Of a stretch of 34,441 bases of DNA, positions 27,025 to 29,542 are shown piece by piece. Each line of letters opens with the position of its first letter. The stretch's first letter is position 1. The stretch lies in the IMG/VR virus record IMGVR_UViG_3300047557_000501, positions 1 through 34,441 of that record. One strand, 5' to 3'. The DNA is from a virus. A program made the position numbers and the translations under genes. The notes under the pieces are model-generated. The model had not been told where the DNA came from, did not search any database, and was given only the letters and a program-made list of their open reading frames with translations.

Positions 27025-27377
27025 TGAGCGCGAGGTATAACCTTGTCTGCGAACAAGCAGCCACATTTAATTTTCAGTTTCAAGTATTAAACAATACGAC
27101 CGCTGGGTCTACACCTTGGAACTTAACTTCATATACAGGAACTATGACTGTACGCCCATTCTTGGGTTCTACAACTACAACAGTCGTAGCTTCTACAACG
27201 AATGGTCGTATGGTATTTGATGCGCTTAACGGAAGAATTACAGTAACTATTGATGCTGCTACTACTGAGAATTTTTCAGCAGGTCGTTATGTCTATGACT
27301 TAGTAGTTACTACTGGTGCTACAACTACAAGACTTTTAGAAGGTAAGTTTACGGTGACTGCTGGGGTGACTCTATGA
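27024..27377 (+). CDS. phage structural protein, beta-sandwich type (117 aa)
   Basis: A 117-aa Thr-rich protein starting [20 protein letters not shown]. The order [13 protein letters not shown] (33-45), a segment [13 protein letters not shown] and a C-terminal RYVYDLVVT then LLEGKFTV pattern is a common phage structural module with a beta-sandwich look. It may attach fibres or decorate the tail. It is coupled to the collagen-like gene by an ATGA overlap, which suggests the two work as one unit. Confidence 0.65.
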
Positions 27378-28453
27378 GTGAAACAATTATCGTAATTGAA
27401 TCCATTACCCCACAGGTATCAGTACAATTTTCAGCAGATCAAGGACCACAAGGAACGCAAGGCGTTACTGGTCCAACCGGAGCCACAGGTCCACAAGGTA
27501 ATACTGTTACTGGACCGACTGGTGGCACTGGTCCAACAGGAAGTACAGGAGCTACAGGTGATACAGGTTCCACAGGTCCTACGGGTGATACTGGCCCGAC
27601 GGGTCCGACGGGAGATACCGGACCCACAGGCGATACGGGTCCTACGGGAGAGACAGGTCCAACAGGACCTCAAGGTGATACAGGCGCAACGGGAGCGACT
27701 GGACCGACTGGTGAAACAGGAGCAGTAGGCCCCACCGGAGCAACTGGGGACACAGGCCCACAAGGTCCAATAGGTGACACAGGTCCTATCGGGCCAACCG
27801 GTGATACCGGAGCAACCGGTGATACCGGACCAACGGGAGATACTGGCGCCACAGGAGACACCGGACCAACAGGTCCACAAGGAATTCAGGGTGAAACTGG
27901 CCCTACCGGTGATACAGGTCCTGTCGGACCTACCGGAGATATGGGTCCTACAGGCCCTACAGGGGCTACAGGAGCCACTGGTAGCACAGGTCCTACCGGA
28001 GACACTGGACCGATAGGTCCAACCGGTCCTACGGGCGCTACAGGCGATACCGGACCGCAAGGTATTCAAGGTGTTACTGGCGCTACCGGACCTACAGGTG
28101 CGACAGGCGATATCGGTCCTACGGGTCCACAAGGCGCAACAGGAGATACTGGTGCCACTGGACCAACTGGCCCAACAGGAGATACAGGACCTACAGGTCC
28201 TCAAGGTTTACAAGGAGTTACAGGTGCAACAGGTCCTACAGGTGATATTGGTCCTACTGGTCCCACTGGCGATGTTGGTCCAACAGGTGCTACAGGACCT
28301 ACTGGAGCGACTGGCGCTACTGGAGCAACTGGAGATGTCGGACCGACAGGACCTACCGGACCCACTGGAGTAACTGGACCAACAGGTGCAACTGGACCGA
28401 CAGGCTCAGATGCAGATGCGTTACCAACTGTTTTAATGTTAGGTGGAATGTAG
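27374..28453 (+). CDS. collagen-like GPT-repeat fibre protein (359 aa)
   Basis: After a 28-residue N-terminal part ([20 protein letters not shown]) the protein consists of about 100 Gly-x-y triplets, mainly GPT, GDT, GAT and GPQ, interrupted once near residue 47 (GNTVT). The repeat would form a collagen-like triple helix, that is a thin rigid fibre. No lysine occurs in the repeat, and threonine fills most third positions. The C-terminus ([15 protein letters not shown]) is short, so any receptor-binding tip must be another protein. Collagen-like proteins are frequent in phage tail fibres. The GT2-like glycosyltransferase that follows nine bases later may decorate the threonines. The antisense reading frames here are artefacts of the repeats. 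Confidence 0.9.
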
Positions 28454-28462
28454 ACTAGAGTA

Positions 28463-29542
28463 ATGAAAGTTGCTGTCTATACGATTGCTCTAAATGAAGA
28501 GCAGTTCGTTGCCCGCTGGTATGACTCTAGTAAAGAAGCTGATTATCATTTAATCTGCGATACCGGATCTACAGATAGAACTGTAGAGATAGCAGAGTCT
28601 TTAGGTATCAAGGTAGTTCACTGTAAAGTCAAACCGTTTAGGTTTGATGACTCTAGGAATATGGCTTTGTTCTCATTGCCAGAAGATATTGATTACTGCG
28701 TTGCATTAGATATGGACGAAGTAATGCAACCTGGTTGGCGAGAAGAACTTGAAAGGGCTTACGCCGAAGGAACAGATAGGCCGCAGTATAGGTTTATTAC
28801 TGATTGGGATGCTGAAGGTAAACCAGCAGTAGAGTTTGATGGATTTAGAATCCATAGGCGTCACGGCGTCAGATGGATATATCCAATCCACGAAGTACCA
28901 AGTACATTCGACGGACCGGATAATCGTAAGCGGTATAACTTTGAGATTCATCACCGCCCAGATAAAAGTAAATCAAGAGGTCAGTACCTGCCGATGTTAA
29001 TTATGGCAGCTAAAGAAAATCCTGATTCAAGAAATCTTTACTATCTAGGTCGAGAATACTTTTATCGTCAGCAGTATGTTGAGTGCGCTAATACTCTCAA
29101 GCAATATTTAGAGAAGTCAGTTTTCAAAGCTGAGATGGCTTACGCAATGCGGATGCTCGCTAAGTGCGAGCCAGACCAAGCAGAAGAATGGCTGACTAAA
29201 GCGATAGAGACATTTCCCTGTAAGGAATCTTTACTTGCTCTAGCAAATCATTACTATATGACTCAGCAATGGGCTGAATGTATATTAGTTGCTAAAGAGG
29301 CTTTGAAGATAACACAAAAGCCAACAGAGTTCCTATCCGAAGGTTGGGCTTGGGGACATATGGCAGATGATCTGATAGCAGTCTGCTCTTGGCAGTTAGA
29401 AGATTTTAAGACGGCTTACAAACACGGCAAGATAGCGGCAGAGATGTCGCCTAATGATGAACGGCTACAAAAGAACCTAGCGTTCTATAAGGAGAAGATA
29501 AATGCCAACGTTCGACGAACTGGTAGACGAGGTAAAAAGTAA
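28463..29542 (+). CDS. family 2 glycosyltransferase with C-terminal helical repeats
   Basis: A 359-aa enzyme. The N-terminal GT-A domain has VYTIALNEEQFVARW (4-18), ICDTGSTDRTVEIAES (31-46) and the metal-binding DMDE (77-81), all typical of GT2 (EpsB/WcaA-like) glycosyltransferases. Residues about 200-350 are helical repeats resembling TPR (YYLGREYFYRQQYVECANTL), which could hold a protein substrate. It transfers a sugar from a nucleotide donor in the cytoplasm. Placement between a Thr-rich fibre gene and an adaptor gene suggests that the acceptor is a virion protein. Its last 41 bases overlap the next gene. Confidence 0.8.
   Translation: MKVAVYTIALNEEQFVARWYDSSKEADYHLICDTGSTDRTVEIAESLGIKVVHCKVKPFRFDDSRNMALFSLPEDIDYCVALDMDEVMQPGWREELERAYAEGTDRPQYRFITDWDAEGKPAVEFDGFRIHRRHGVRWIYPIHEVPSTFDGPDNRKRYNFEIHHRPDKSKSRGQYLPMLIMAAKENPDSRNLYYLGREYFYRQQYVECANTLKQYLEKSVFKAEMAYAMRMLAKCEPDQAEEWLTKAIETFPCKESLLALANHYYMTQQWAECILVAKEALKITQKPTEFLSEGWAWGHMADDLIAVCSWQLEDFKTAYKHGKIAAEMSPNDERLQKNLAFYKEKINANVRRTGRRGKK

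Follow-up and report, generated by a model that had tools for sequence, protein, structure and literature searches.

A threonine-rich collagen-like fibre gene and an adjoining SgtA-type glycosyltransferase gene as a probable substrate-enzyme pair in freshwater phages

Phage collagen fibres, phage virion glycosylation and bacterial collagen glycosylation are each already known. The closest described system is that of SgtA of Clostridioides difficile, a protein of 358 aa with a glycosyltransferase (GT) domain and four TPRs, whose gene lies directly upstream of bclA3 and which modifies Thr in the collagen-repeat peptides of BclA3 with beta-O-GlcNAc (PMC7157674). In mycobacteriophages, glycans are carried on capsid and tail tube subunits (Freeman et al. 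2023, cited in PMC12619734), and collagen glycosylation is named for mimivirus in PMC8968730.

The locus described here resembles the C. difficile pair in that a collagen gene stands directly beside the gene of an enzyme with a GT-A domain and C-terminal TPR repeats, homologous to SgtA over nearly its full length (25% identity, profile E 1.9e-39). It differs from that pair in the collagen, a phage fibre here and an exosporium protein there, and in gene order, the GT gene following the collagen gene in the phage and preceding it in C. difficile; moreover, the activity of SgtA is published, whereas that of the phage enzyme on collagen is predicted from homology. With the mycobacteriophages it shares a virion protein as the proposed target, here of a phage-encoded GT, the target being a collagen-like fibre with Thr repeats, served by an SgtA-type enzyme, instead of capsid and tail tube. 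No report of a phage enzyme glycosylating a phage collagen fibre was found in the literature searched, mostly without subscription papers, nor was the combination of such an enzyme-fibre pair with its retention through an exchange of the enzyme family found in print there.

The fibre slot of the window

The DNA analysed, referred to as the window, is a virus contig of 34,441 bases (IMG/VR record IMGVR_UViG_3300047557_000501). Its major capsid protein shares 41-47% identity with the capsid proteins of a Streptomyces phage group that includes Dennebes, and its terminase, portal and adaptor share 46-49% with their counterparts in phage F5 (OX376641; terL 46%, portal 49%). Phage F5 was isolated on 'Ca. 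Planktophila' (PMC10202952), and a freshwater actinobacterium is therefore the likely host of the window phage. In the 24-kb stretch of Dennebes examined (L161), which carries the related capsid gene and 23 annotated tRNA genes, no Gly-X-Y run of seven or more triplets was found. The structural module of the window also contains an ORF of 1614 aa (15523-20367); F5 has one of 1711 aa at the matching place, and there was no blastp match between the two.

The fibre gene lies in a group of four genes on the plus strand (27024-30404). The first is a small gene of the structural module (27024-27377), matching phrog_1084 (unknown function, E 4e-26) and phrog_3304 ('L-shaped tail fiber protein assembly', E 1e-13); no counterpart of it was found in F5, which is also without the fibre and GT genes. 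Its stop is overlapped by the start of the collagen-like fibre gene (27374-28453, 359 aa; Pfam Collagen E 4e-49, PHROG tail fiber families), and after a gap of 9 bases (28454-28462) the gene of the GT2 glycosyltransferase with C-terminal TPR repeats follows (28463-29542, 359 aa). The end of the GT gene overlaps the start of an SU10-type adaptor gene (29502-30404; Pfam SU10_adaptor E 2e-10), which closes the slot. With these overlaps and the short gap, the four genes are tightly packed.

The Gly-X-Y part of the fibre consists of a block of 7 and a block of 100 triplets. Of these 107 triplets, 84 (79%) have Thr as the Y residue, and the commonest triplets are GPT (36), GAT (20) and GDT (16). Lys, Arg and His are missing from the entire protein, and Asp and Glu together number 29. 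The sequence-only reading, which had described about 100 triplets with Thr in most third positions and no Lys, was thus accurate. Chance does not account for the run of 100 triplets, since none of 50 base shuffles of the window gave a run longer than 4, and the repeat is located within the structural gene module, as for a phage collagen-like tail fibre. That reading had also drawn the partnership with the GT in part from the composition of the fibre. Composition alone was rejected as evidence for it and says little, because bacterial collagens in general most often have Thr at Y (48.3% in Gram-positives, 31.6% in all bacteria; PMC8968730).

The Thr content of the window fibre is high when compared with a sample of viral collagens, in which Thr made up 29% of the Y residues in 4163 triplets. 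This baseline was collected with a DNA pattern neutral as to Y, and 80 of 120 stretches were analysed, giving 70 ORFs with at least 12 triplets. The median Thr fraction was 0.54 for the 10 ORFs with a GT detected within 3 kb and 0.29 for the 60 with none detected, a weak and not decisive difference, since many loci were short and only four GT models, built for this analysis, were used. Two Thr-rich viral collagens of the baseline (L375 and L445, in a sample with partly short loci) had no detected GT. In basic residues the lineage of the window differed from the baseline: Lys and Arg together numbered 5 in 9226 lineage triplets vs 348 in the 4163 baseline triplets, and were missing altogether from 104 of 109 lineage loci vs 17 of 49 baseline ORFs with at least 30 triplets.

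The sequence-only reading of the second gene as a GT2-type enzyme with TPR-like repeats, nine bases after the fibre, was borne out by Pfam (Glycos_transf_2 E 3.8e-8, TPR_2 E 9.2e-8) and by PHROG (phrog_13126, 'beta-1,4-glycosyltransferase', E 3.4e-118). The layout, a GT-A (GT2) domain and then TPR repeats in about 360 aa, matches that of SgtA. Residues D33, T34, S36, D83, D85 and E86 were invariant in 25 aligned rows with 41-87% identity to the window enzyme, and D83, D85 and E86 are conserved acidic residues of the DxD type. Among solved folds, an AlphaFold model (pLDDT 91.8) was best matched by two peptide S-glycosyltransferases, SunS and ThuS, with Z 20-22 and rmsd 2.9-3.6 against Z 18 for the next family; the top match, 7msp, had Z 22.1, rmsd 2.9 and 255 aligned residues. 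Sequence identity to SunS and ThuS was only 14-18%, and by sequence the solved protein with the closest GT domain was GmaR (E 2e-10). GmaR is a flagellin glycosyltransferase, and the acceptors of SunS and ThuS are small peptides. The enzyme is predicted to be soluble because no membrane-like hydrophobic stretch was found in it, the highest 19-residue hydropathy being 0.63.

Further sugar genes are present in the early region of the window. A GT25-family glycosyltransferase gene (911-1495, plus strand) encodes a protein with 31-48% identity to the GT25 that many relatives have in the fibre slot, and is followed on the same strand (1492-3604) by genes for a glycosyltransferase (phrog_14945), an NAD-dependent epimerase and a SAM methyltransferase, assigned by Pfam and PHROG. 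The whole cassette (911-3604) adjoins a DnaB-like helicase gene. The GT25 may possibly perform a second glycosylation step, and its neighbours could tailor the glycan, so that together they could extend or modify the sugar. The GT25 collagen glycosyltransferases of animals and mimivirus act on hydroxylysine. The occurrence of GT25 in the window and in the slot of its relatives recalls these systems; unlike their targets, the lineage fibres hold a single Lys in all 9226 triplets, and a role of this GT25 as a collagen glycosyltransferase of the lysine type was not supported. A possible further acceptor is the product of a small gene at 31669-32088 (plus strand), whose N-terminus carries about 8 GPT-type collagen triplets; its Pfam Collagen match (E 0.004) did not reach the curated cut-off. 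Several relatives have a comparable short GPT stretch some 2 kb past the GT gene.

Conservation of the pair and exchange of the enzyme

Relatives of the slot were collected from IMG/VR with three anchors, the GT2 itself, the adaptor and a GT4, of which the adaptor selects contigs without regard to the GT. It gave 194 relatives, of which 80 were kept; 24 of these were dropped for having less than 2.5 kb upstream, and 56 were left, near-identical phages included. A collagen ORF and a GT were found upstream of the adaptor in all 56. The GT was a GT4 in 25 contigs, a GT25 together with a GT4 in 24 and a GT2-TPR enzyme in 7, with the labels taken from profiles built in this analysis and checked in Pfam for three proteins (two GT4, one GT25). 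After removal of duplicates shared with the GT-selected loci, 42 contigs were left, all with GT4 or GT4 and GT25. The search for conserved pairing in related phage genomes, which the sequence-only reading had suggested, thus came out in favour of the pair, with GT2-TPR as the minor form in this set.

The GT2 anchor gave 92 relatives, of which 80 were kept and 67 had at least 1 kb upstream. A collagen ORF of at least 12 triplets was found in 61 of the 67, and its stop lay within 60 nt of the GT start in 31. Among the six misses (L021, L022, L023, L063, L067 and L072), L063 has a stretch of 10 triplets directly before its GT gene. The GT4 anchor gave at least 600 relatives (80 kept, 70 with at least 1 kb upstream); collagen ORFs were present in 69 of the 70, and at most 60 nt separated the collagen stop from the GT start in 28. 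In L225 and L228 the collagen ORF was downstream. Counting each distinct adaptor once gave 112 loci whose upstream part reached at least 2.5 kb, some of them selected by their GT: 109 had collagen and GT, two had a GT2 without collagen (L021 and L022), and one, F5, had neither. A collagen gene without a GT was found in none of these 112 partly GT-selected loci. The GT gene was located between the collagen gene and the adaptor in 108 of the 109, sometimes together with other genes.

In L021, L022 and L023 the GT2 gene was kept and the collagen gene was replaced by one for a Thr-rich (13.5-14.8%) non-collagen protein of 786-1001 aa. The replacement protein has repeated similar domains, and its N-terminus matches the window gene at 26731-27024. 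The paired collagen of another locus (L066) had Thr in only 0.39-0.46 of its Y positions. In F5, no Gly-X-Y stretch of the Pro/Thr type was found, and the triplet runs that did turn up were glycine-rich and at most 10 triplets long; neither did blastp with the GT2-TPR, GT4 and GT25 proteins used here find a match, nor the model search a GT2-TPR hit. F5 and phage E7 are said to carry glycosyltransferases, and two collagen-like proteins are named in a variable island, in PMC10202952; these are either other genes, or they were missed in F5 here.

Among the 112 loci with different adaptors, the GT was of the GT2-TPR type in 38 and of the GT4 type in 73. The adaptor tree, a quick tree with two long branches, gave four changes between GT2 and GT4, at least three of which were forced by supported branches. 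Since GT2 and GT4 enzymes are built on different folds, the feature conserved in the slot is glycosyl transfer and not one particular gene. The fibres differed with the enzyme, the median fraction of Thr in Y being 0.87 with GT2 (n = 36) vs 0.68 with GT4 (n = 73). In independent pairs on the tree the GT2 side was the higher in Thr in 2.6 of 3 on average and never the reverse, pairs too few for significance.

Relatives in bacteria and in other phages

Bacterial genomes gave 262 relatives of the GT, of which 80 were kept, mostly from Firmicutes and with 36-43% identity. A collagen ORF was found in the locus of 52 of the 80 with the stricter filter (55 with a looser one), and directly beside the GT gene on the same strand in 36; it was not found in 28 of the loci, some of which were short. 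As a control, the same test was applied to other GT2 genes, namely the 40 strongest among the matches listed, at least 20 kb apart and taken from 15 of the same genomes, with four stretches short. Only 4 of the 40 were near a collagen ORF, and three of these four overlapped family loci (L305, L309 and L328) while the fourth was on the contig of another (L251). One further control (L369) proved to be a remote member of the family itself, without a collagen ORF. At 60% identity the 80 bacterial GTs formed 11 clusters, 10 of which had a member with a collagen ORF, and at 70% it was 22 of 35. The Thr fraction in Y of the bacterial collagens near the GT ranged widely, from 0.12 (L309) to 0.99.

The published sgtA primer matched eight genomes of one kind, six of them exactly, and with one mismatch also a Paraclostridium genome (G003). 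The phage GT profile matched the sgtA ORFs of the eight genomes almost from end to end (E 2e-42 to 9e-39), and the window GT aligned with the SgtA ORF of one of them (G019) over 369 columns at 25% identity (E 2e-18). By sequence, the window GT is a full-length homologue of SgtA. A collagen ORF stood beside the sgtA ORF in all eight, with Thr in 0.69-0.75 of the Y positions in seven; in the eighth it was a stub of 9 triplets at a contig end, with a fraction of 0.56.

In other phages the picture was mixed. A GT relative was found in 67 phage records, nine of which were examined. In the faecal contig MT838491, a collagen ORF of 28 triplets, with Thr in Y only 0.36, precedes a GT of 38% identity, and 10 bases separate it from the earliest start that this GT could have. 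Phage DSL-LC01 (OQ999401; 129 kb) encodes a 49% identical GT, and upstream of it, at a distance of about 3 kb and past two intervening genes, come two collagen genes; the interval includes a gene annotated as tryptophan halogenase (6433-8004 of L162). In the large or jumbo phages Lu11, PaBG, HRDY3, NCTB, Alexandra and Sen-NF, whose GTs are 28-34% identical, no collagen ORF was found in the examined flanks of any of the six, and the same was true of the flanks of an Enterococcus record (L168, GT 25% identical), making none in seven. The GT genes of the large phages lie near structural genes (head maturation protease or others). The identity of these remote phage GTs (25-34%) resembles that of SgtA, so membership in the family does not by itself give the acceptor. 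The sequence-only reading, which had the GT2 gene and a collagen gene belonging together, held for the near relatives, 61 of 67 with collagen, and did not hold for the six remote large phages or for L021-L023.

Proposed role of the pair and alternative explanations

The near-constant company of a GT, together with the kinship to SgtA, suggests that the phage probably sugar-coats its own fibre. The partnership, first proposed from adjacency and composition, was strengthened by the conserved pairing, the replacement of enzymes within the slot and the homology to SgtA, with composition alone adding little. The fibre would then be encoded with its own modifying enzyme, and we think it probable that the GT2-TPR protein O-glycosylates Thr of the fibre before assembly. 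The soluble enzyme would act in the cytosol, and its donor would be a nucleotide sugar, with GlcNAc the one expected from SgtA. Thr at Y of the Gly-X-Thr repeats would be modified on the nascent, unfolded chain before trimerisation, the TPR arm holding the repetitive chain; the sugared fibre would then enter the virion. We infer the acceptor, the donor and the order of these steps from SgtA and from the gene pairing, and the presence of the fibre in the virion is presumed. The purpose may be fibre stability, masking or binding, stability being considered because the lineage collagens are nearly without Lys and Arg.

The sugar could also be a structural need rather than a coat, with glycosylated Thr in Y stabilising the (Gly-X-Thr)n triple helix; we hold this tentatively, as possible but on the whole doubtful. 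With the 5 Lys and Arg residues of the lineage fibres, charge pairs cannot hold the helix, and hydroxyproline is not expected in these fibres, in which Thr would stand where animal collagen has hydroxyproline. Work on a vent-worm collagen reportedly showed that sugar on Thr stabilises Gly-Pro-Thr helices. If helix stability needed sugared Thr, the phage would have to bring a GT of some family to fold its fibre, which would explain both the presence of a GT in all 56 unselected relatives and the exchangeability of its family.

A different acceptor, be it some other protein of the virion or Thr-rich surface proteins in general rather than collagen specially, seems unlikely. It would fit the persistence of the GT2 gene in L021-L023 beside a Thr-rich non-collagen protein, the position of the remote large-phage relatives near structural genes with no collagen ORF in the flanks, and the second window protein with GPT triplets (31669-32088). 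However, collagen genes were near 52 of the 80 bacterial relatives against 4 of the 40 controls, the bacterial collagens being unrelated to the phage adaptor or capsid, and F5 retains matches to other structural genes, yet is without such a collagen gene and without these GTs. SgtA itself acts on collagen repeats (PMC7157674). A GT altering the host surface, by superinfection exclusion or receptor change, from a variable slot beside the fibre is somewhat less likely still. Such a role was suggested for the GTs of phages E7 and F5 (PMC10202952) and of pelagimyophages (PMC7029224), and the slot does accept different GT families. Against it, the window GT is without a membrane-like stretch, its best folds and closest solved GT domain are those of peptide or protein glycosyltransferases, and a locus without a GT was found neither among the 109 lineage collagen loci, partly selected by GT, nor in the unselected set. 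Very unlikely is a merely inherited neighbourhood, in which the two genes are linked by descent without working together and Thr in Y is simply usual for phage as for bacterial collagens, in the latter as the commonest Y residue (PMC8968730); the lineage sample is related by descent and the tree-corrected test of Thr against GT type was not significant, but a GT was retained in the slot through at least three exchanges between unrelated families and the pairing recurs in bacteria and in other phages.

Glycosylation of the fibre by its neighbouring enzyme, the reading we prefer, suggests that protein O-glycosylation encoded by the phage itself, with an identified probable substrate, is widespread in this sparsely cultured group of freshwater phages. 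It provides a testable reading of such phage GTs beside the usual ones, modification of DNA or of the host surface, and natural enzyme-fibre pairs with three glycosyltransferase classes are available for comparison. The pairs may also represent a possible route to stable collagen without hydroxyproline.
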